From Methylomonas montana (GTDB lineage Bacteria; Pseudomonadota; Gammaproteobacteria; Methylococcales; Methylomonadaceae): DNA of 64,000 bases. The notes beneath the pieces were generated by a model. That model saw only the letters and a program-made list of their open reading frames with translations, did not search any database and was not told the DNA's origin. This document shows, in pieces, positions 1,034-54,000 of the stretch (position 1 is the first letter of the stretch; each line of letters opens with the position of its first letter). The stretch covers positions 2,480,001-2,544,000 of the forward strand of contig NZ_CP129884.1 in NCBI RefSeq assembly GCF_030490285.1, given 5' to 3'. The position numbers were made by a program, and so were the translations under genes.

Positions 1034-1423
1034 TTGGATGTGAAAACAAGACAAAGGATTTTGCTTGTCGAAGATGACAAAAACTGTGCAGATTTATTGC
1101 ATTACGTTTTGGTAAGAGCCGGCTTCCAGGTAGACATCGCAGCAGACGGTCTTCAGGGACAAAGACTCATCAATAACTCCGCAAATCCGCCAGCACTGGT
1201 CTTAACAGGGTTGATTTTGCCTTACATAGATGGCTATCAACTGCTGCAGCAAGTTCGCAAAACTGAAAATTGGTCACAAGTGCCAATCATTGTTTTAAGC
1301 TCTAAAACTCAAGAACAAGATATTGTCAGGGCTTTTCAGCTCGGCGCGTCGGACTACGTCACCAAACCTTTTCAATTGGGAGAATTATTAGCTCGTATCG
1401 ATTGCCGTATAAACGAGAGCTAA
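1034..1423 (+). CDS. Single-domain response regulator (receiver domain only)
   Basis: A 127-129 residue protein that is almost entirely a CheY-like receiver domain. Visible features are the acidic pair in LLVEDDKN, the GYQLLQQVR helix, the VLSSK segment (Thr/Ser position) and the conserved Lys in YVTKPFQLGEL. The usual phospho-acceptor strand reads ALVLTGLILPYIDGY, where the normal DLxxP Asp is replaced by Gly (LTGLILP), so canonical phosphorylation may be lost; this is a notable oddity. The start is either TTG 1034 or GTG 1040, with no strong ribosome site for either. It lies 10 bases before the YaiO gene and probably belongs to the polysaccharide locus as a regulator or docking protein. Confidence 0.85.
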   Translation: MDVKTRQRILLVEDDKNCADLLHYVLVRAGFQVDIAADGLQGQRLINNSANPPALVLTGLILPYIDGYQLLQQVRKTENWSQVPIIVLSSKTQEQDIVRAFQLGASDYVTKPFQLGELLARIDCRINES

Positions 1424-1433
1424 TATTTCGTAT

Positions 1434-2678
1434 ATGTCTCACATTTACCGTTGGTTTATCATCTGTTCGATGATTTCCGGGCCATTATCAGCCGCCAATA
1501 CCCAGCCCCTGATCGATGAGGCGGTCCATAGCGGTCGTTTTTCAGATGCAGAGCGACTTCTGCGCGACGACTTAATTCAAAATCCCAATAATGCAGAAGC
1601 GGCTTTTCGATTAGCCAAAGTGCTGTCCTGGCAAAAAAAATATGACGACGCGGAAATCGCTTACCGCGCACTATTGGCGAACGAACCGGAAAATACCGAC
1701 TATCAATTAGGGCTCGCCCAAGTCTATGTATGGCGAAATCAGCCCGCATTAGCCCTGCCGTTGCTCGAAAAAGCCAGAGCCTCAGCTGCGGCTGATTCGG
1801 ATATTTGGCGGTTACATATTCAAGCGCTAGCGGCAAAAGGCGATGTAGTATCGCTTCGGCAAGCGCTTGTTTTGAGACAACAGGCAGCGGAACGTTTCCC
1901 AAACTTGAATTGGCCCGCTATAGAAGAGCCTCCGGAAAATGCCGCGACAAAGCCGGTTGCAGGCGTCGTGACAGCATTGGAACGAAAATTCAATGACCCC
2001 TATGCCAACCAGATTGAGTTAGGTGGTTCCTATGAGAACCTGACTAATCAGCAAGGCCATTGGCGATCCGAATATTTGAGTATCGAGCATCATTTTAACC
2101 CTCGCCAATTGGTATATGGCTCGGTTCAACAAACCGAACGTTTCGCCCGGAACGACATCCAGCTACTCTTGGGAACCTACCAGCCGCTGACCGCCAATCT
2201 GACTTTCAACCTGGAAGGAGATGTCAGTCCGACTTCTCAGGTCTTGGCCAAAAACAGCATCATGGCTTCGTTACAAGGTGGCTTGGGCCACGGGGTTTTC
2301 CTGACCGGCGGCTACCGCCATAGTGAATACGGTACCGGTCCGGTTGAACAAGGTTTCTCCACTTTAGAAAGTTATTTCTCTGATTTTCGCTTTGCTTATA
2401 CCGTCCGCGCGACCGATTCTTTCCAGAAAACCCAGTTCGGTCACCGCTTTGACTTTTCGTATTACTACAATGACATCAGTTCTATCACCTTTACTTACAA
2501 CTTTGGTGCAGAAACAGGTGGTTTCCAAGGCGTTGTCTACGACACGCAATATTTTGGCCTACACGGTAGACATTGGCTTAATCCGGACTGGGCGTTAACC
2601 TGGGACTTGGGACATATCGAACAAGGCACGTCTTATATTCGCGAAGGAGCGACACTTGGGATTCGCCGCGCTTTCTGA
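1434..2678 (+). CDS. YaiO-type TPR plus outer-membrane beta-barrel protein
   Basis: 414 residues. An N-terminal signal peptide (about residues 1-20) is followed by TPR-like helices (about 25-165, with pattern AAFRLAKVLSWQKKYDDAEIAYRALL) and a ~230-residue C-terminal region of alternating strands rich in aromatic and Gly residues that ends in Phe (GIRRAF), as outer-membrane barrels do. Periplasmic TPR scaffold plus barrel is the YaiO layout and resembles PgaA/BcsC-like export porins in principle. Its gene overlaps the following HEAT gene by 23 bases, implying co-translation. Likely role (inference): outer-membrane exit for the polysaccharide made by the GT2 protein. Confidence 0.8.
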   Translation: MSHIYRWFIICSMISGPLSAANTQPLIDEAVHSGRFSDAERLLRDDLIQNPNNAEAAFRLAKVLSWQKKYDDAEIAYRALLANEPENTDYQLGLAQVYVWRNQPALALPLLEKARASAAADSDIWRLHIQALAAKGDVVSLRQALVLRQQAAERFPNLNWPAIEEPPENAATKPVAGVVTALERKFNDPYANQIELGGSYENLTNQQGHWRSEYLSIEHHFNPRQLVYGSVQQTERFARNDIQLLLGTYQPLTANLTFNLEGDVSPTSQVLAKNSIMASLQGGLGHGVFLTGGYRHSEYGTGPVEQGFSTLESYFSDFRFAYTVRATDSFQKTQFGHRFDFSYYYNDISSITFTYNFGAETGGFQGVVYDTQYFGLHGRHWLNPDWALTWDLGHIEQGTSYIREGATLGIRRAF

Positions 2679-3729
2679 CATTAGGGTTATCATCGCCTTC
2701 TGGATCGGAGCAATTTCCATTTTGCTCGCCTTCCTGTTGCTCATCGAGATTATCTGGCTGCGTACCTCCTTATTGCTTAAGAGCTATTTTCGCGAAACAT
2801 TCGAAACCAAGGCACAAAAGTGGTTGATTCGCAGAATAGCCGGAGAATCAGGCGAGATGCCAAAATTTAGGCGCCGCAATCTGCGTGATTTCATGCACCT
2901 TTGGATTCATTATCAAGAAATGTTACGCGGGGAATCCACGGAGCGGCTCAATCAGGCGCTGCTAGATTCCGGTTTTTTGCCACTGATACGCAAACAACTG
3001 CGTCGAGGTAGTTTTGAAGACCGTTTATTGGCCGTTACCCTGCTTGGGCATCATAGGGATGTCCAATCGCTAAAGCTTATCGACCAGCTACTTGACTCAG
3101 CGTCCCCTTTACTATCGATGACCGCCGCAAAAGCGCTAGCGAGAATTGCACCGGAACAAGCTCAGCACAAAATAGTGCAATTGCTGATTCAGCGCCGCGA
3201 TTGGGTGCCTGTGCGGGTGTTACTGATGCTGAAATTGACCGACCCTTGTTTGAAACAAGCACTGCTCGACACTATCCAACGCGAGGCCGCTCAATTTCCG
3301 CCTTATTTGCTGCGACTGGTTCAATATCTGGAAAACTTGCCGAATAACCAGGCGCTGGCCGTCACCCAAAAACTCTTGGCAAATCAAAACCAACAAGATG
3401 GCGACGGTGATTTAATTGCGGCCGGGCTGCGTTTGATCTGCCATCCTGCCGAAATGGAAACAGCCCGTAAATTTTTTGACGACGACCACTGGGCAGTTCA
3501 AGTGCAAATAGCCTCGCTGATCTCTCGATTAGGCTCGGCTAGCGATGCTCACCATCTGGTTAAGCTGCTCGATTCCAGTCAATGGTGGGTTCGTTACCGC
3601 GCCGCCAAGGCGCTAGTAAATTTACCTTATATGAATCATCGTGCGATTAAACGTCTCGCTAAAACACGAAAAGACTTGTTCGCGAGAAATATATTGCAGC
3701 AAATTTTAGCGGAACAGGATCATCGATGA
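2656..3729 (+). CDS. Membrane-anchored HEAT-repeat protein
   Basis: 357 residues. The TTG start at 2656 is chosen because GAAGGAG lies just upstream (2643-2649). One N-terminal membrane segment (about residues 10-32) is followed by a soluble region. From about residue 115 onward it shows HEAT/Armadillo-type repeats (RLLAVTLLGHHRD, SMTAAKALARIAP, VQIASLISRLG, VRYRAAKALVNLP). HEAT arrays are protein-binding scaffolds, so it probably organises the synthase on the cytoplasmic face. It overlaps the upstream barrel gene by 23 bases and the downstream GT2 gene by 4 (ATGA). Confidence 0.8.
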   Translation: MGFAALSDIRVIIAFWIGAISILLAFLLLIEIIWLRTSLLLKSYFRETFETKAQKWLIRRIAGESGEMPKFRRRNLRDFMHLWIHYQEMLRGESTERLNQALLDSGFLPLIRKQLRRGSFEDRLLAVTLLGHHRDVQSLKLIDQLLDSASPLLSMTAAKALARIAPEQAQHKIVQLLIQRRDWVPVRVLLMLKLTDPCLKQALLDTIQREAAQFPPYLLRLVQYLENLPNNQALAVTQKLLANQNQQDGDGDLIAAGLRLICHPAEMETARKFFDDDHWAVQVQIASLISRLGSASDAHHLVKLLDSSQWWVRYRAAKALVNLPYMNHRAIKRLAKTRKDLFARNILQQILAEQDHR

Positions 3730-5168
3730 CCGGCCTGCCAATCAATTGGAACGACCTTTTACATTTCAGCGAATGGTTTTTTTTGGCCTATTTTGTCGCC
3801 ATCAATTTTTTTTATCTGATGTTGAATGTGGTAGCGCTATTCAACTTGTCAGCCTACATGCCGAACAAGATTTTGGAAGATATGCCGCAAATCTATTCCG
3901 GCATGGAGCCGCCAGTCAGTATTTTGATTCCGGCCTATAACGAGCAAACGACCATCATTGGCTCAACACTATCCATGCTGCAATTGGATTACCCGGAATT
4001 TGAACTGGTCGTCGTTAACGACGGCTCTACAGACAACACGCTGCAGACTCTAACAGACTATTTTGGTTTGCTGCCTTTTCCGGAGGCCTATCGCCAATCG
4101 CTAGACACCCAGGACGTCAAAGCCATCTTTCGTTCAACCCGCTACCCCAATTTACGCGTTATCGATAAAGTCAATGGCGGCAAAGCCGATGCTCTGAATG
4201 CGGCGGTTAATGCGGCCCGTTACCCTTTAATCTGCTCGGTCGACGCCGACAGCATGCTGCAATTGAATAGCTTGCAACGCATCACCTTCCCGTTCATGGA
4301 AGATCGCCGAGTGGTTGCGGTCGGTGGCACCGTCCGCGTCGCAAACGGCTGCTCGGTTAAAGACGGTTTCATGAGCGCTATTGGTTTACCCAGTAACTTA
4401 CTGGCACTGTTTCAGGTCATCGAATATTTACGGGCATTTTTATTTGGCCGGCTGGGATGGTCGGTTCTTGGCGGATTGCTGATCATATCCGGCGCATTCG
4501 GCGTGTTCCGCAAAGACGTGGTGTTGGCTATTGGCGGTTTTCGATCAGATACCGTTGGCGAAGATATGGAGCTTGTGGTGCGCATGCATCGATTGCTACG
4601 CAAACGAAAACAAACATATCGCATGGTGTTCTTACCCGATCCGGTTTCTTGGACGGAAGTACCGGAAGATTTTCGGACACTGAAAAATCAAAGGGTGCGC
4701 TGGCAACGCGGCTTATGTGAAAGTTTGTTTGGCAATTTAGGACTGATGTTCAGTCTCAATGGCGGTGTACCAGGCTGGTTGGCTTTTCCATTCATGTTAT
4801 TTTTCGAATGCTTAGGCCCACTCGTTGAGGTGACCGGCTACATTCTGATGTTCGTTTTTTATTGGCTGGATTATCTATCTTGGCCTGTGTTCAGCATTTT
4901 TATATTTGCTAGTATCGGTCTGGGTCTATTACTATCGGTCTCGAGTTTATTGCTCGAAGAAATGTCATTTCACCTGTACGACAACCCCAAGCAAATTCCA
5001 GGCTTATTGTTAGCCGCTATTCTGGAGAATTTCGGGTTTAGACAACTCAATTCAATTTGGCGGGTGATAGGGTTCTTGCATTGGTTATTCGGTCGCAAAC
5101 ACGGCTGGGGCGAAATGAAGCGCAAAGGCAAGTGGCATGATTTAAAGGAGAAGGAGTATGCATCATGA
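3726..5168 (+). CDS. Processive family-2 glycosyltransferase (polysaccharide synthase)
   Basis: 480 residues. An N-terminal membrane helix (about 17-40) precedes a GT-A domain with VSILIPAYNE (~64-73), the NDGSTD motif (~98-103), the DxD-type SVDADS (D173, D175), the TVGEDMEL acceptor/base motif (E279-D280) and the QRVRW motif (Q322-W326). QxxRW marks processive inverting synthases such as PgaC, BcsA and HasA. Several membrane helices follow (about 345-425). It likely polymerises and extrudes a beta-linked polysaccharide at the inner membrane; the sugar is unknown. Translation is coupled to the HEAT gene (ATGA) and to the next gene (11-base overlap). Confidence 0.9.
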   Translation: MTGLPINWNDLLHFSEWFFLAYFVAINFFYLMLNVVALFNLSAYMPNKILEDMPQIYSGMEPPVSILIPAYNEQTTIIGSTLSMLQLDYPEFELVVVNDGSTDNTLQTLTDYFGLLPFPEAYRQSLDTQDVKAIFRSTRYPNLRVIDKVNGGKADALNAAVNAARYPLICSVDADSMLQLNSLQRITFPFMEDRRVVAVGGTVRVANGCSVKDGFMSAIGLPSNLLALFQVIEYLRAFLFGRLGWSVLGGLLIISGAFGVFRKDVVLAIGGFRSDTVGEDMELVVRMHRLLRKRKQTYRMVFLPDPVSWTEVPEDFRTLKNQRVRWQRGLCESLFGNLGLMFSLNGGVPGWLAFPFMLFFECLGPLVEVTGYILMFVFYWLDYLSWPVFSIFIFASIGLGLLLSVSSLLLEEMSFHLYDNPKQIPGLLLAAILENFGFRQLNSIWRVIGFLHWLFGRKHGWGEMKRKGKWHDLKEKEYAS

Positions 5169-6522
5169 ACGCTACCGACATGGCCTCAGTATATTCGCTA
5201 CCCACCTGTCACAAAGATTATGTTGGCTGTTGCTAGTTGTCTCAAGTATGGCCGACGCCAGTTGGTTAGAATTTTGTCCCTATCCGTCCTTACCTGATCC
5301 GCTGCCTCCCGGTTATCTATCGCACATTCTCGATTCAACGCAAACTGTCAGACTTCTGCGGATTAGCGCAGAGCCGCCCAATGATCCAAGCTGCCAAGTT
5401 AGGCAATTACCGATCAGCACTGATGACTTGGCTTGGGTTGGTTTTGCAAGCCCTTCGGATAGTCAGGCCAGACGATTAGGTTTGCTAGGCCAACAAAATC
5501 AACAAACCTTCAAAGTCACAGAAATCGTTGACATTGATGCATCGGCAGCGACGGTGCACGTTAGGGACGAGTCCCTTCCGCCAAAGTTGACGGGGCCTAA
5601 AACATCGCCAATACATTATCCTCGATCCGCCTGGTTTTGGTCACCCACCATCTGGCAACAAACACCGCAGCGTATTTTCGACGCCCAAATCAAATTTGGG
5701 TTACAGCGGATTTATATCTCGTTACCCTTCTCAGAACAGCAAATCAGTCATGCCAATCAATTGCGGGAGTTTTTGCAACTCGCTCATCGGCATGGTTTGC
5801 AAGTTTGGGCAGTACTGGGCGATCCGCATGCGGTGCTCGACGACCAACGCCCCTATTTCCTCAATCTAGCCAAATCGATTGAAGCCTTCAATTCCGAACC
5901 CGACCCAAACAAACTCGATGGCCTACAGTTGGATATAGAGCCCTACTTGCTACCCGGCTACCACGTAAATCCGGGGATTTGGTTAAAAAAACAAGCTGAA
6001 ACCGTGGCAGCCGTACGGCAAGTAACGCCATCTTTGGCGCTAGACATGGTGATTCCATTTTGGCTTAATCCGGAACAAAAAGAAGGAAGCGAACTTCTGA
6101 CGGCAGTCGAAGCCCACTTGAACAGTTTAACCGTTATGAATTACCGCACTGATCTGGATCAAATTAATGATTTTACGGAAAAATTTCTGACCTGGGGCGA
6201 TACGCACAAAAAGTCGGTTTTTATCGCACTGGAATCCCTGCCTATAGCGGATCAGGAACTACGTGTCTATGCACAGGCGGCACAGGGTGAGCTTTGGCAA
6301 ATCGATTTTGGTTCCGTGAAAGTCTTAATGTTACTGAAACAGCCGCAAGCCCTATCCGGCGAGAAAGCCTATCGGTTATCCCACACACGTAACGTGGAGG
6401 GAAGCAATACCAGCTTTTTCCAAAAACCGGAAGCATTACATGACTTAATCAGCAAAATCGAATATCGCTTCAGTGACTCGCCATCATTTGCCGGCGTTGC
6501 TTTGCATGGTCTTGATTATTAA
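5158..6522 (+). CDS. Secreted GH18-like TIM-barrel protein of the polysaccharide locus
   Basis: 454 residues with an N-terminal signal-like hydrophobic segment (about 18-33). The C-terminal ~280 residues have TIM-barrel features: RIYISLPFS, LQVWAVLGDPHAV, the acidic strand LDGLQLDIEPYL and the later VMNYRTDLD. The D-x-D-x-E strand and MNY motif recall GH18-type hydrolases, but I cannot show activity. By analogy with PgaB-like partners of synthase systems it may trim or modify the polymer in the periplasm; that role is inferred. The start overlaps the GT2 gene by 11 bases, and the gene ends the plus-strand run, convergent with the next gene. Confidence 0.65.
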   Translation: MHHERYRHGLSIFATHLSQRLCWLLLVVSSMADASWLEFCPYPSLPDPLPPGYLSHILDSTQTVRLLRISAEPPNDPSCQVRQLPISTDDLAWVGFASPSDSQARRLGLLGQQNQQTFKVTEIVDIDASAATVHVRDESLPPKLTGPKTSPIHYPRSAWFWSPTIWQQTPQRIFDAQIKFGLQRIYISLPFSEQQISHANQLREFLQLAHRHGLQVWAVLGDPHAVLDDQRPYFLNLAKSIEAFNSEPDPNKLDGLQLDIEPYLLPGYHVNPGIWLKKQAETVAAVRQVTPSLALDMVIPFWLNPEQKEGSELLTAVEAHLNSLTVMNYRTDLDQINDFTEKFLTWGDTHKKSVFIALESLPIADQELRVYAQAAQGELWQIDFGSVKVLMLLKQPQALSGEKAYRLSHTRNVEGSNTSFFQKPEALHDLISKIEYRFSDSPSFAGVALHGLDY

Positions 6523-6543: not shown

Positions 6544-7509
6544 CTAAGGCACGACGAGATTAGTTTCGATTTTTTGCAACTGATCCCGAGCCTCTTGATG
6601 TTTGGGCTGGAGTTGTAGCACTTTTCGAAAATAATCCGCGGCTTCTTTTAAGCGTTTTTCTCTGGCCAACACCAATCCCAACCCGTTTAATGCTTCAACA
6701 TTGTCCGGTTCTTTCGCCAGCACTTTGGTAAATCCTTGCTCGGCAGCGGGAAGTAAGTTGTCCCGATAATTGCAGTAAGCGGTGCCTATTAGTGGATCGG
6801 TAGAAGATGGCAGCAAACCCTCTGCAGTGGTGAAATATTTTCGCGCAGCCTCTATGTTACCCAGTTTGTAATTGACCCAGGCATGCAACAATACCGCCGC
6901 AGGAGTCGGCGCCCGAATTTCATCTAAAAGCGTCAAAGCCTGCTGATAATCGCCCTCGTTGAACTTTGTTTCCGCCGAATCGAGTTTTACTGCTTGGCGA
7001 CTGCGCTCCCCTTCCTGCAGGGTATAACGAGCCACCTTGATTTGTTTTGCCTCAAGCAATTTTTTCACGGTGGCAATCCGATGAACCCCCAAATAACAAT
7101 GAAGATAAAGTTTGCCGGCATGATTGGCGATTGTCTCGGCAGCGTGATTAGCGTTTTGCTCATAATAAGCTCCAAACTTTTGCCCAAGAATGCTGGCCAT
7201 CGGGAAGTTTAGTAATTGCATACCATAACGTCCGGCCAACTCGCCTTCTTGATCCAACAGCTGTTTTTCATAGGGCAACGCCGGATCCAATAAGCTGACT
7301 ATCGTTTTTATATTGTTTTCTGACAGACGTTTGAAATCTTTTTCAACTGGATAAGGTCCGGTAATAATGTTCGCGCTGACATCGGAGATTTCGCCGCGAA
7401 AAATCCGTAATATTGGATTATCAGGGGTAATCAAAATCCAATACCCTAGTGCAATGCCAAGCAGTCCTAACATGGCAAAGCCAACAGTTTTTTTGAAGTA
7501 GTCGAACAT
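6544..7509 (-). CDS. Membrane-anchored cysteine phosphatase-like protein with TPR tail
   Basis: 321 residues. One N-terminal membrane helix (about 9-27) is followed by a dual-specificity/tyrosine phosphatase-like domain with the signature HCYLGVHR (nucleophile C138, R144; HC-x5-R). TPR helices follow from about residue 155 to 315 (YQQALTLLDEIRA, PDNVEALNGLGLVLARE). The usual general-acid Asp loop is not obvious; DPALPY at ~75 is a candidate. The substrate is unknown. The gene is convergent with the polysaccharide locus, with only 21 bases between stops, which suggests but does not prove a link to envelope polysaccharide control. Confidence 0.75.
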   Translation of the reverse strand: MFDYFKKTVGFAMLGLLGIALGYWILITPDNPILRIFRGEISDVSANIITGPYPVEKDFKRLSENNIKTIVSLLDPALPYEKQLLDQEGELAGRYGMQLLNFPMASILGQKFGAYYEQNANHAAETIANHAGKLYLHCYLGVHRIATVKKLLEAKQIKVARYTLQEGERSRQAVKLDSAETKFNEGDYQQALTLLDEIRAPTPAAVLLHAWVNYKLGNIEAARKYFTTAEGLLPSSTDPLIGTAYCNYRDNLLPAAEQGFTKVLAKEPDNVEALNGLGLVLAREKRLKEAADYFRKVLQLQPKHQEARDQLQKIETNLVVP

Positions 7510-9203: not shown

Positions 9204-9890
9204 TCAATACCAAATCCGAAAGCCCACCACACCGCGCAAGCTATGTTGGTGTTCGCGCAACGACGCTTCCTCGACATAATCCATACCCACATACGGCGCA
9301 AACTCGCGCTCGATCTCGTAACGCAAGCGAAAACCCGCCTCAAACTCCGTGACGCCGGATTTCACGCCGCGATTTTGTATATCCTGCGCCGCTAGGTTGA
9401 TCTCGACTCGTGGCTGGAAAATCAAACGCTGGGTTAGCAGCATTTCGTACCCCAGAGTCAGCCGTCCCAACACATTGCCTTTCTCGTTAATAAACATCGC
9501 GCTATCGACTTCGATGAAATACGGTGCCAAGCCCTGAAAACCAATCACCGCATCGAAAGTACGCTCCGGCTCGAACGCCCGTCTGGCGCCGATTTGAAAA
9601 TCCCAAAAGGTGTCGATATTGCGGCTGTACAGTAGCTGCAAATCGGCGCGACCGAAGATATTCTGATCGGCGGAGTAATCGCCTTCCGATTTTAGCCATA
9701 GCTTGTGTTCGTCGTTGCCTGTCCAATTCTGTACATCCCATTTGAACAGATGCAAGCCTTGATTGCCTTCGTACTCCAGCCGATCGGCCTTGAAATGATT
9801 GAAAATCATCGAGTGTTCTTGGGCGGCGGCATTCATGCTCATCGCTGCCAATAGCCCGCACAACCAAATGTTTTTCAAGGTATTATTCAT
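9204..9890 (-). CDS. copB: Copper resistance protein B (outer-membrane beta-barrel)
   Basis: 228 residues, signal peptide about 1-23, then a beta-rich outer-membrane domain typical of PcoB/CopB: the opening FNHFKADRLEYEGNQG, then WDVQNWTGND, LLYSRNIDTFWDFQIGAR, FIEVDSAMFIN and a C-terminal FRIWY ending in an aromatic residue. It lacks the long Met/His-rich N-terminal stretch of some CopB proteins, so it is a short version. It overlaps copA by 8 bases, so the two are co-translated. Likely role: outer-membrane part of copper resistance. Confidence 0.9.
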   Translation of the reverse strand: MNNTLKNIWLCGLLAAMSMNAAAQEHSMIFNHFKADRLEYEGNQGLHLFKWDVQNWTGNDEHKLWLKSEGDYSADQNIFGRADLQLLYSRNIDTFWDFQIGARRAFEPERTFDAVIGFQGLAPYFIEVDSAMFINEKGNVLGRLTLGYEMLLTQRLIFQPRVEINLAAQDIQNRGVKSGVTEFEAGFRLRYEIEREFAPYVGMDYVEEASLREHQHSLRGVVGFRIWY

Positions 9891-11583
9891 GTCGTTGCTC
9901 CGCCTTTTCGACGATTAATTTGCGGAACATGCCGGTATCCATGTGATAGAGCAAATGACAATGGAAAGCCCATTCACCCTCGGCATCGGCCGGCACATCG
10001 ACATTGACAGTCTGGCCGGGCTTGACATTGATGACATGCTTTTTCGGGTTATACATGCCTTTACCGTTGTCCAGATATTGCCAAAGGCCGTGAATATGAA
10101 TCGGATGATTCATCATGGTTTCATTGACGTAACGAAAGCGGATCCGTTCGCCAAACTTCACCCGTATCGGTTCCGCATCGGCGAATTTTGTATCGTCGAA
10201 CGACCAGATATAACGATACATATTTCCGGTCAGCCGCAAAGTGATTTCCCGGTCCGGCGGCCCCATCAAGGCATGATTGGCTTCCGTAGCTTGCAAATCC
10301 TTGTAATCAAGCAGCGCATGCGACTCCATGGCCGGCTCGCTATCAATATGCGTTTGCTGATGAACATGCGCCGGCGGGACAGCCCCGACCGCTTCGTGCC
10401 CGGCATGATCCTGCGCAGATGGTGCGGAATGCTCGGCGTGCTGTTGGTCGGCGTCGTTGGTTTGGGTGTGCAACTCAGCGGCTTGATGACCGGCGTGACC
10501 ACTATGTGCGCCGCCCATGTCAGCCAAAGTCAATAAGGTTATCGGCCGCATAGTCGGAATCGGCGCGTGTAAATCCTCGCGCGGCGTCAGCGTGGCAAGC
10601 GCATAACCGCTGCGATCCATGGTTTCGGCAAATATGCTGTAAGCCTGATCGGCTTGCGGTTGGACCAAGACATCGTAAGTTTCCGCGACTGCGATCCGAA
10701 ACTCCTCGATGTCGACCGGCATCACCGGCTGCCCGTCCGCGGCGATCACCCGCATCTTCAAACCGGGTATGCGCAAATCAAAATGCGTCATCGCCGAGGC
10801 ATTGATAAAACGCAGGCGTAAGGTCTCACCCGGCTTGAACAGATAGATTTGTTTAGCGTCCACCGCTTGGCCGTTGATCAGATAACGGTAATTGATACCG
10901 GTCACATCGGCTAGATCGGTCGGCTCCATGCGCATGTCGCCCCAAGCCAAACGGTCGGCAATCGTTTCCCAAAACCCCAGCTTTTGTATGTCGGTGAAAA
11001 AATCGCCGACGGTGCGTCTTTGAAAGTTATAGTAATCGCTTTGTTTTTTTAGCCTGGCCATCGAGCGATGCGGGTCCGCGCGCGGCCAATCGGACAGCAT
11101 CACCACATAGTCGCGATCAACCGGCTGATGATCATGCAGGGGCTCGATAATCAGCGCTCCGAACAGACCTTGCTGCTCCTGCATCCCGGAATGGCCGTGA
11201 TACCAATAAGTGCCGCTTTGCTTGACTTGAAACTGGTAAGTAAAGGTCTGGCCGGGCGCAATACCGTCAAAGCTGATGCCCGGCACGCCGTCCATTTGAT
11301 ACGGCAAGATGATGCCGTGCCAGTGAATCGAAGTCTGTTCCGTGAGCAAATTGGTGACTTGCAATGTCACTTGTTCGCCTTCCCGCCAATACAGGGTGGG
11401 CGCGGGCAAACTACCATCAGCCAGCACGGCTGTCTGCGATTCGCCGATCAGATTAATCGATTTTTCCGAGATAGATAGCCGATAAACATCGGCGTAAGCC
11501 AAGACCGGCCCCATGACGATCAGCCAAAGGCAAATAGCCATGCATTTGCCGTCCGGATAATGCCCATTACCGAGAATTTGCAT
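9883..11583 (-). CDS. copA: CopA-type multicopper oxidase
   Basis: 566 residues. All copper-binding motifs are visible: HWHG (~87-90), YHGHSGMQ (~128), HPIHIHG (~490s) and HCHLLYHMDTGM near the end. A His-rich insert (GGAHSGHAGH and following, about residues 355-410) lies before the last cupredoxin domain. The family oxidises Cu(I) and/or sequesters copper in the periplasm. The N-terminus looks like a Sec-type signal (MAICLWLIVMGPVLAYA, from residue 15) and no twin-arginine motif is visible, unlike many CopA proteins. The start at 11583 has CAGGGG just upstream; M15 at 11541 is an alternative. First gene of the copAB pair. Confidence 0.92.
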   Translation of the reverse strand: MQILGNGHYPDGKCMAICLWLIVMGPVLAYADVYRLSISEKSINLIGESQTAVLADGSLPAPTLYWREGEQVTLQVTNLLTEQTSIHWHGIILPYQMDGVPGISFDGIAPGQTFTYQFQVKQSGTYWYHGHSGMQEQQGLFGALIIEPLHDHQPVDRDYVVMLSDWPRADPHRSMARLKKQSDYYNFQRRTVGDFFTDIQKLGFWETIADRLAWGDMRMEPTDLADVTGINYRYLINGQAVDAKQIYLFKPGETLRLRFINASAMTHFDLRIPGLKMRVIAADGQPVMPVDIEEFRIAVAETYDVLVQPQADQAYSIFAETMDRSGYALATLTPREDLHAPIPTMRPITLLTLADMGGAHSGHAGHQAAELHTQTNDADQQHAEHSAPSAQDHAGHEAVGAVPPAHVHQQTHIDSEPAMESHALLDYKDLQATEANHALMGPPDREITLRLTGNMYRYIWSFDDTKFADAEPIRVKFGERIRFRYVNETMMNHPIHIHGLWQYLDNGKGMYNPKKHVINVKPGQTVNVDVPADAEGEWAFHCHLLYHMDTGMFRKLIVEKAEQRHE

Positions 11584-51526: not shown

Positions 51527-52786
51527 ATGTCCAACATAGCCGCATTACCCCGCGTTAACGAGACAGATTCGGCAATCGATACAGATTCCGGCACGCTTGC
51601 CGTGCAAATGGGACAAGCCAGACAGCGACTGGTACTGTTATTACTTGAAAATAATCACGCTAACGAACTGATTTCAAAAAAGTTTTTTGGCGCCCTCAAC
51701 AACGGCTCAGATTATTCTGAGTTGATGGTCGCTAAAAACTCTGAAGACTCCAAAAAACTGCTGGATTGGTTCGCCAGCAGTCGTATCGCCGAGACCAATC
51801 CCGCCGAACGGCCGACGGAATATGGCGCAGATTTAAAACCTGTGCAAGATCGGCATATCGTACAACTTTCCAAGCCGGACATAAGCGAACAAAATCCGGC
51901 TTCGACATCGCTTAATCAATTGTTGTACGGCGCGCATTTGTTACCGGTGTTTTTGGTGGATGTCGCAAGCCAGGCTGAACAACAGTTGCTTGCGGACGGT
52001 TTAGGAAGCCAGGATTACCAAATTCAGCTCAAACAAGCCAGCCGCGAGTTGAAAACGCTACGTCAGCAAATGATAAATGCCAATACCGGCTTGGTGGCTT
52101 TCGTCGCTTATAAATATAAAACCAGCAATCTGAGTTTCGACGACTTGATGCAGGAAGGATTGGTGGGATTAATCAAAGCCGTGGACAGATTCGATCCGGA
52201 GCGCGGCATTTGCTTCTCCACATATGCCATCTATTGGATCAAACAAGCCATCTCCCGGCTGATCGTCAAACAAGAAAAAATCGTGCGATTACCGGTTGCG
52301 TTGGCCGAAAAAGCCGCGACCGTGTTCGATGCCATGCGTACTTGTTATCTCCGATATGAGCGTTGGCCCGGCATCGCCGAACTTAAAGCGTGCTGCGATT
52401 TATCGGAGCAGGAAATCAAAACCATCAGCAGTTACTACCAAGCCACGCATTCCCTGGACGCCGTTATCGGCGATGAAGACGATAATCTGGGTTTAATGGC
52501 AAAAATGCAGCAGCGCCAATTCAGCCTACCGCTTGATGAACTAATCGACAAGGACTTAGCTCAATATGTCGACAAAGCAGTGGCCTCGTTACCGGAAAAA
52601 CAGGCCGCGATCCTGACCATGCGTTTCGGTCTGCGCGATCACACGGAAATGACGCTGCAAGCCGTAGCGGACCAACTGCATGTTACTCGGGAGAGAGTCA
52701 GGCAAATTCAAAACGAAGCCTTAAAAAAACTGAAACAACAGTTTGGATTTGACCTTATGCTATTTCTCGAACCCAAGGATGGCTAA
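51527..52786 (+). CDS. Alternative sigma-70 family factor (regions 2, 3, 4)
   Basis: 419 residues. Residues ~1-185 are a poorly conserved extension (DYSELMVAKNSEDSKK...). Region 2 follows (NTGLVAFVAYKYK, LSFDDLMQEGLVGLIKAVDRFDPERG, FSTYAIYWIKQAISRLI), then region 3 and region 4 (LPEKQAAILTMRFGLRDHTEMTLQ, VADQLHVTRERVRQIQNEALKKL). It is a non-ECF sigma factor of the group 2/3 kind rather than RpoD, RpoS or RpoH by length and extension. Divergence from the B12 photoreceptor suggests light-induced expression, as with LitR-LitS in actinomycetes (there ECF). The HflK gene follows after 50 bases. Confidence 0.88.
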   Translation: MSNIAALPRVNETDSAIDTDSGTLAVQMGQARQRLVLLLLENNHANELISKKFFGALNNGSDYSELMVAKNSEDSKKLLDWFASSRIAETNPAERPTEYGADLKPVQDRHIVQLSKPDISEQNPASTSLNQLLYGAHLLPVFLVDVASQAEQQLLADGLGSQDYQIQLKQASRELKTLRQQMINANTGLVAFVAYKYKTSNLSFDDLMQEGLVGLIKAVDRFDPERGICFSTYAIYWIKQAISRLIVKQEKIVRLPVALAEKAATVFDAMRTCYLRYERWPGIAELKACCDLSEQEIKTISSYYQATHSLDAVIGDEDDNLGLMAKMQQRQFSLPLDELIDKDLAQYVDKAVASLPEKQAAILTMRFGLRDHTEMTLQAVADQLHVTRERVRQIQNEALKKLKQQFGFDLMLFLEPKDG

Positions 52787-52836
52787 CAATAACAATCAAT
52801 GACTAAGGTCAGGCTAACACTACAAGAGGAGTGATT

Positions 52837-54000
52837 ATGTCATCAGAAAAACAAAATACCAGTAAGCAAACGCCGCAACCGGACTGGAAGCTTGAGGTAG
52901 ACAAGCAATGGAAGCAAGTCTCGTCTAAGGCGGGCGATTTTTTTAACGACCATAAAAGCCTGTTTTCGGTCTCTAAAATAGCGTCTGCCGTGGGCGGTAC
53001 GCTAACGGCAGTGTGGTTGGCCAGCGGCGTTTATATCGTCGATCAAGGTAACCGCGGTGTGGTCACCCGCTTTGGCGCCTATTCGGAAACCACCCTGCCG
53101 GGTCCGCACTGGCATATTCCTCTGCCGATCGAGAACGTGGCGATCGTCAACGTCGAGCAGCAACGTTTTATCGAAGTCGGTTATAACGACACTAATCGAC
53201 TCAATAAATCCTCGGTGATCCCGCAAGACTCGCTAATGCTGACCAGCGATGAAAACATCATCACCGTGCGTCTGGCCGTGCAGTATCAAATCAATAATGC
53301 CCGCGATTATTTGTTTAACGTCAAAAACAGCGAAAGCACGCTGAAACAACTCACCGAAAGCGTCGAGCGCGCGGTGATAGGCCGCAACAATATGGATTTT
53401 GTGTTGACCGAGGGCCGCAGCCAAATCGTTGCCGAAATTAAAGAACAAACTCAGGCGGCAATGGACGATTACAAGGCCGGCATCAGCATTGCTAGCGTCA
53501 ACTTACAGGATGCTCAGCCGCCCGAAGAGGTGCAAGGCGCCTTCGAGGATGCGATTCGGGCTCGCGAAGACAAGCAGCGCTTAATCAACGAAGCCGAAGC
53601 CTATAGCAACGAGATCATCCCTAAAGCCCGCGGCGCGGCGGCACGGATCATTCAAGAAGCCGAAGCCTATGAGGCCGAAAAAGTCGCCAAAGCCAAAGGC
53701 GAAACCGAACGCTTCGATCAATTGCTGGTGGAGTACGAAAAAAATCCAGCAATCACCCGCAAGCGCCTGTATCTGGAAGCCAAGGAAAAACTCTACAGCA
53801 CCACCAATAAGGTCATGCTGGAAGCGGATCAAACCAATCCGACGCTTTACATGCCCTTACCGCAAGCCATCGGCCAACATGCGCCAACCGGCAATACCAG
53901 CGCCGAGCCGGAGCTTAATGCCGAACAACACGCCGCCGATAAAAACGCGGTACGCAAAACGCCCAACAACGAATTACGCCCTAGCAGGAGCAAACCATGA
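52837..54000 (+). CDS. hflK: HflK-type SPFH protein
   Basis: 387 residues from ATG 52837, with AGAGGAG six bases upstream. N-terminal cytoplasmic tail, one membrane helix (about 50-70), then an SPFH domain (VDQGNRGVVTRFGAY, GPHWHIPLPIENV, VQYQINNARDYLFNV, ISIASVNLQDAQPPEEV) and a long helical tail with EAEAYEAEKVAKAKGETERF. HflK forms the HflKC cage around FtsH. It lacks the Gly-rich N-terminus typical of the standard HflK, in line with a second copy. It overlaps HflC by four bases. Confidence 0.88.
   Translation: MSSEKQNTSKQTPQPDWKLEVDKQWKQVSSKAGDFFNDHKSLFSVSKIASAVGGTLTAVWLASGVYIVDQGNRGVVTRFGAYSETTLPGPHWHIPLPIENVAIVNVEQQRFIEVGYNDTNRLNKSSVIPQDSLMLTSDENIITVRLAVQYQINNARDYLFNVKNSESTLKQLTESVERAVIGRNNMDFVLTEGRSQIVAEIKEQTQAAMDDYKAGISIASVNLQDAQPPEEVQGAFEDAIRAREDKQRLINEAEAYSNEIIPKARGAAARIIQEAEAYEAEKVAKAKGETERFDQLLVEYEKNPAITRKRLYLEAKEKLYSTTNKVMLEADQTNPTLYMPLPQAIGQHAPTGNTSAEPELNAEQHAADKNAVRKTPNNELRPSRSKP

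Follow-up and report, generated by a model that had tools for sequence, protein, structure and literature searches.

The cellulose synthase BcsA/BcsB/BcsC combines a family 2 glycosyltransferase (GT2) with a partner subunit and a protein made of tetratricopeptide repeats (TPR) and an outer-membrane barrel. The PgaABCD system of Escherichia coli, which produces poly-N-acetylglucosamine, likewise has a GT2 synthase and an exporter with TPR and outer-membrane barrel, together with a periplasmic TIM-barrel hydrolase. Five systems are listed in one survey on synthase-dependent exopolysaccharides, whose main text mentions neither HEAT nor YaiO (PMC7112194). Here we analyse a cassette of five plus-strand genes at positions 1034-6522 of a 64,000-nt window of Methylomonas montana, whose genome is a single contig of 4.63 Mb. 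In function the cassette would resemble Pga and Bcs, with a synthase, a putative partner subunit, a TPR-barrel exporter and a hydrolase, and it places a membrane-anchored HEAT-repeat protein beside its GT2. Coordinates refer to this window, and L-numbers denote loci of relatives extracted for comparison. The cassette is the local form of a HEAT-GT2 pair that is spread across many bacteria and some archaea, and it is probably a synthase-dependent surface polysaccharide system with a HEAT partner, export through YaiO, trimming by a barrel protein and a proposed input from a receiver.

Pairing of the HEAT and GT2 genes

The cassette begins with a stand-alone receiver of the response-regulator type (1034..1423, + strand; 129 amino acids, no output domain; Pfam Response_reg, E = 7.4e-24). 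It is followed on the same strand by a protein with N-terminal TPRs and a YaiO-type outer-membrane β-barrel, a likely polymer exporter (1434..2678; Pfam YaiO 2.9e-12, TPR_19 6.7e-13; TIGR04390 8e-33), and by the HEAT protein (2656..3729; HEAT_2 2.3e-14), in which a transmembrane helix precedes an α-solenoid in an AlphaFold2 (AF2) model; the solenoid is predicted to be cytoplasmic. The GT2, which is of the processive type and conserved in relatives (3726..5168; Glyco_tranf_2_3 8.4e-23), and an exported TIM-barrel protein resembling glycoside hydrolase (GH) families GH18/GHL, with a conserved DIEPY motif (5158..6522), complete the cassette. All five open reading frames of the preliminary description are present; the domains of the first four are confirmed by Pfam, that of YaiO by NCBIfam too, and the barrel of the fifth is predicted by AF2. 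The last four genes overlap by 23 nt (YaiO/HEAT), 4 nt (HEAT/GT2) and 11 nt (GT2/GH-like), which is the usual sign of a single transcript; promoter and terminator scans gave a signal no better than chance. The TTG start of the HEAT gene is common to the window and both family relatives, L011 and L012.

Scanning named genomes with the GT2 alignment yielded at least 542 confirmed relatives; the counts that follow refer to the 80 best of these. The hidden Markov models used were iterated on the same loci that they later labelled, and two pairs of rows, L012 and L018 (one genome) and L043 and L044 (identical GT2s), were counted separately. Of these best 80, 70 carry the HEAT gene immediately before the GT2 gene in the same orientation, and in three the GT2 gene stands at the start of a contig. 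The remaining seven form one Nitrospira-type group; four of them carry HEAT-YaiO-GH on one strand and the GT2 gene on the opposite strand, and in L015 the HEAT gene is 5.5 kb from the GT2 gene. The pairing is also recovered from either partner. A search with HEAT only in 369 genomes of the class returned 15 non-self loci, 13 with GT2 immediately downstream, one with GT2 as a convergent neighbour and one at a contig edge. A search with GT2 only in an even phylum sample of 398 genomes gave 14 genomes with a match, and HEAT is directly upstream in all 13 non-self cases (L145 and L148 come from genomes that are also present in the class sample). On plasmid records the pair occurs in 12 of the 13 examined (15 were found; H4 and H5 were left out), including those of three haloarchaea, a Paenibacillus and a Deinococcus. 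Hosts overall comprise Proteobacteria, Nitrospira, Bacteroidota, Gemmatimonadota, Clostridia, Bacilli, Actinobacteria, Deinococcota and haloarchaea.

Since only two gene regions of the M. montana genome exceed the HEAT_2 cut-off, the cassette's own included, chance adjacency of HEAT and GT2 is negligible. Within the family sample the HEAT protein is found in 3 of 121 genomes, that of M. montana being one, and all three keep the order receiver-YaiO-HEAT-GT2-GH-like despite identities as low as 29% for HEAT and 56% for GT2. Distances between HEAT proteins correlate with those between GT2s (r = 0.74, 73 pairs, shared ancestry not controlled). What looked like HEAT-GT2 fusions at L034 and L090 are artefacts of open reading frame extension, and no reading frame matched both profiles. 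The invariant core of the system is the HEAT protein together with the GT2. The possibility that these genes are neighbours in this genome only, by which the preliminary description could have failed, does not hold, as the order or the gene set recurs across phyla. The same description had singled out HEAT as the unusual component; HEAT is, however, not peculiar to this locus, and no part of it is better conserved than HEAT and the GT2.

The AF2 model of the HEAT protein (predicted local distance difference test (pLDDT) 94.3, predicted template modelling score 0.85) shows a long N-terminal helix at residues 9-61 followed by a helical-repeat solenoid, which in structure comes closest to binding scaffolds of a generic kind (alphaRep, ARM, PP2A). 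An N-terminal hydrophobic helix is found in 66 of 67 HEAT proteins, with on average 0.6 Lys/Arg residues on its N-terminal and 6.3 on its C-terminal side. The positive-inside rule predicts a cytoplasmic solenoid, on the same side of the membrane as the receiver and the catalytic domain of the GT2.

The GT2 carries the motifs NDGS (98), DAD (173), GED (278) and QRVRW (322) and hydrophobic segments at both termini. Domains, motifs and segments agree with an inner-membrane GT2 of the processive kind, where processivity is read from the motifs. Over 326 alignment columns it is 27% identical to the PgaC of its own genome, and over 285 columns 25% identical to E. coli YaiP. A quick tree built from 111 rows separates all 105 GT2s from HEAT-type loci, by a branch with support 98, from six outgroup rows (own PgaC, E. 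coli PgaC, YaiP, a Prevotella fusion and two other GT2s) whose long branches leave the root and the exact depth uncertain.

Exporter, barrel and receiver modules

TIGR04390 (OMP_YaiO_dom) matches residues 192-414 of the YaiO protein with 114.3 bits (cut-off 32), which places it in the YaiO family, and the combination of TPRs and barrel in one chain is that of a periplasmic TPR/outer-membrane barrel protein. With presence defined as 100 bits or more within 6 kb, YaiO was recorded for 49 of the 64 diderm loci and for none of the 16 monoderm or archaeal ones (Fisher p = 1e-8; labels were taken from record titles, and two archaeal rows are metagenome bins). This restriction to diderm loci makes YaiO look like an outer-membrane module. 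A tblastn search of the plasmid records with YaiO gave no match.

The GH-like protein matches no Pfam or NCBIfam family. Its AF2 model contains a TIM barrel at residues 150-454, mostly with pLDDT values of about 90. The best Foldseek match is a group II chitinase (9e-7), found among many other barrels, and in VIA-align Cwp19 reaches a Z score of 18.9, a GH18 chitinase 17.6 and the C-terminal domain of PgaB 16.3; as many glycosidases tie, the barrel is not assigned to a family. There is a profile match to Cellulomonas fimi 10yv (2.6e-12), and the residues D259 and E261 (DxE) are invariant in 13 aligned sequences. The predicted fold lies in the GH18/GHL-type neighbourhood, and the protein is a candidate glycosidase. 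Of the secreted GH18-like protein proposed earlier, the TIM barrel is borne out by AF2; it is, however, a variable accessory and not part of the core.

The same GH-like family is present in loci of Nitrospira, Beta-, Gamma- and Alphaproteobacteria and Bacteroidota, in some of which a deacetylase-like protein stands beside it (L050, Polysacc_deac_1 1.8e-11). Another family of large exported proteins occurs in ten loci, mostly of monoderms (among others L048 3835-5955, L052 4221-6377, L080 9477-11699 and L126 1850-3919), with TPR-type matches in L058 and L113. Pfam and NCBIfam gave no glycoside-hydrolase match for this family and the PDB no relative; GHL10 stays below the cut-off (0.09), and a GH5-like appearance was noted by eye only. 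Sugar-nucleotide genes adjoin the pair in Halosolutus (nucleotidyltransferase, glmS) and Legionella adelaidensis (nucleotide-sugar dehydrogenase, epimerases). As these neighbours differ between lineages, the polymer probably differs as well.

Of 83 loci, 59 have a receiver gene upstream in the same orientation, and this adjacency recurs in Gram-negatives, Gram-positives and haloarchaea. Asp occupies the acceptor position in 55 of the 59 receivers, 53 being called by the P-4 rule and two (L048 and L052) by eye; the receivers of L057, L064, L069 and L074 are among those with Asp. The others are the receivers of the window and L011 (Gly), L075 (Glu, by eye) and L058 (Asn and Glu). In the window the phospho-acceptor site reads VLTGLILP (motif VLTGLILPYIDG), with Gly in place of Asp. 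This receiver therefore lacks the usual site of phosphorylation and would be a pseudo-receiver. A cluster in which Pfam confirms two histidine kinases is found in 24 loci, and the Mesorhizobium ciceri locus adds a histidine phosphotransfer (Hpt) gene. From the shared compartment and the conserved proximity we infer that the receiver may act directly on the HEAT protein.

Alternative readings and a proposed mechanism

Several observations weigh against a polysaccharide system with a HEAT partner and receiver input. The Nitrospira-type loci L014 and L016 have no HEAT gene on their contigs, and below about 30% identity the pairing is broken in one case, a Prevotella match consisting of a GH18-NodB-GT2 fusion without HEAT; a Legionella match at 29.7% identity retains it. 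Among the loci examined, HEAT is nowhere naturally fused to the GT2 or to the receiver. No same-strand receiver lies within 3.3 kb in 24 of 83 loci, some of which are cut by contig ends, and 15 of 64 diderm loci have no recognised YaiO, some of these also ending at contig edges.

These receiver-free loci bear on a reading that we regard as quite possible, if short of probable, namely that HEAT is an assembly or localisation scaffold for a synthase without phosphorelay control and the receiver acts elsewhere. The generic nature of the structural matches of HEAT would suit such a scaffold, as would the loss of the acceptor Asp in the window and L011, whereas the recurrence of the receiver beside the pair in Gram-negatives, Gram-positives and haloarchaea, its Asp acceptor in nearly all cases and the cluster with confirmed histidine kinases argue for a signalling input. 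It is unlikely that the GT2 is non-processive and serves glycolipid or protein glycosylation, its neighbours exporting or trimming something else. Similarity in sequence to GT2s of solved structure is short or weak, yet the full motif set, the terminal hydrophobic segments and profile matches of the chitin-synthase and PgaC type speak for a polymerase, as do the YaiO/TPR and glycosidase-like neighbours.

Two further explanations tie the cassette to known loci. A pgaB-pgaC-pgaD cluster lies about 2.4 kb upstream on the opposite strand (L013 9923-13630; genome 2474923-2478630); its pgaD matches the corresponding model, and no PgaA exceeds the cut-off in this genome. YaiO could accordingly serve mainly this PgaA-less cluster, with the cassette as a displaced Pga accessory. 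We hold this to be improbable: genomes of the genus commonly have pgaB and no pgaA, as PgaB exceeds the cut-off in 37 of 37 and PgaA in 5, the HEAT gene is absent from all seven other same-genus genomes of the family sample, and the cassettes of L011 and L012 have no adjoining pga genes as judged by eye. Least plausible of all is that the cassette is a divergent member of the Pga, Bcs, Pel or Alg systems. Its GT2, TPR-barrel protein and TIM-barrel enzyme fill the same roles, and the fold of the latter matches, among others, the C-terminal domain of PgaB, but the GT2 reaches only 136.1 bits on the PgaC model TIGR03937 (NCBIfam cut-off 422.3), and the cassette scores are 22.7 bits on the PgaA model TIGR03939 (cut-off 366.65) and 25.1 bits on the BcsC model (cut-off 858). 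A Pfam scan of the five cassette proteins found neither PgaD nor PilZ, and the GT2s form a separate clade. Because the models fail and the partner subunit differs, the cassette is not a Pga or Bcs member; nor does the second ground on which the preliminary description could have failed, close homology to a characterised locus, apply.

For the surface polysaccharide system that we favour, the following mechanism can be proposed. Judging from its motifs and fold class, the GT2 would polymerise a nucleotide sugar and thread the chain across the inner membrane. The near-invariant pairing suggests that HEAT, anchored by one transmembrane helix and with its solenoid predicted in the cytoplasm, partners the synthase as an obligate subunit or co-polymerase. 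It may thus replace PgaD or BcsB, which fill this role in other systems, and may take phosphorelay input. In diderms, YaiO with its periplasmic TPRs would act as the outer-membrane exporter, and the exported barrel protein may trim or release the polymer. Through the receiver, often near a histidine kinase, a two-component signal would reach HEAT and the GT2; in M. montana, lacking the acceptor Asp, it would work unphosphorylated or as a constitutive subunit.

More tentatively, the pair could represent an ancient further class of synthase in Bacteria and Archaea, gated by a receiver through the membrane-anchored HEAT protein and not by cyclic di-GMP (c-di-GMP), to which YaiO and lineage-specific glycosidases were added as modules for export and processing, and of which this window would show a derived form with a phosphorylation-blind receiver. 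If true, the five types named in the survey (PMC7112194) would be joined by a sixth whose constant core is HEAT and the GT2, and a biofilm or surface polymer would be added to many lineages, among them nitrifiers, methanotrophs, rhizobia and haloarchaea. The function of YaiO would become testable, a phosphorelay alternative to c-di-GMP control would be at hand, and a large set of adjoining 'HEAT repeat' and 'glycosyltransferase' annotations would be explained.

Flanking genes and comparison with known systems

Convergent to the cassette lies a gene for a dual-specificity-phosphatase-like protein with TPRs (6544..7509, - strand; weak PTPase matches in Pfam). Among 37 genomes of the genus searched it occurs in M. 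montana only, and it directly follows the GH-like gene in L011 too. Its absence from the other 36 genomes and its position beside the L011 cassette suggest that it arrived with the cassette, and it is probably co-inherited with it. Elsewhere in the window, 9204-11583 on the minus strand holds a gene pair that by eye resembles those for a multicopper oxidase and an outer-membrane protein of copper resistance, and the AT skew of +0.21 at 52001-54000 is marked compared with the remaining window.

In the open-licence full-text literature, with subscription papers and preprints outside the scope of the search, no description of a HEAT-GT2 system was found, and a review of c-di-GMP control mentions neither 'HEAT repeat' nor YaiO (PMC8461298). 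We infer that the system is undescribed and that its product is an exopolysaccharide. A related arrangement is the Prevotella nigrescens fusion from a plasmid record (L128 2778-6185), in which a related GT2 is likewise tied to carbohydrate-active domains; unlike the cassette, it is a single chain of 1135 amino acids that joins GH18, polysaccharide deacetylase and GT2 as a whole synthesis-and-trim unit and has no HEAT. The uncharacterised yaiS-yaiP-yaiX-yaiO cluster of E. coli shares with the cassette a YaiO barrel and a GT2 and has a putative deacetylase, but HEAT is not annotated there, and BLAST of the window YaiO protein against E. coli YaiO gave no significant match.

Yeast Chs4, with Sel1 repeats, and plant CSI1, with ARM repeats, are α-solenoid partners of GT2 polysaccharide synthases. 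Their likeness to HEAT is a functional analogy, as they are eukaryotic, belong to other repeat families and are not encoded in an operon. Compared with Bcs, the cassette is without PilZ by Pfam scan, and no BcsB was seen. Compared with PgaABCD, whose PgaB C-terminal fold resembles that of the GH-like protein, it has neither PgaD nor a deacetylase domain, and carries the HEAT protein instead.

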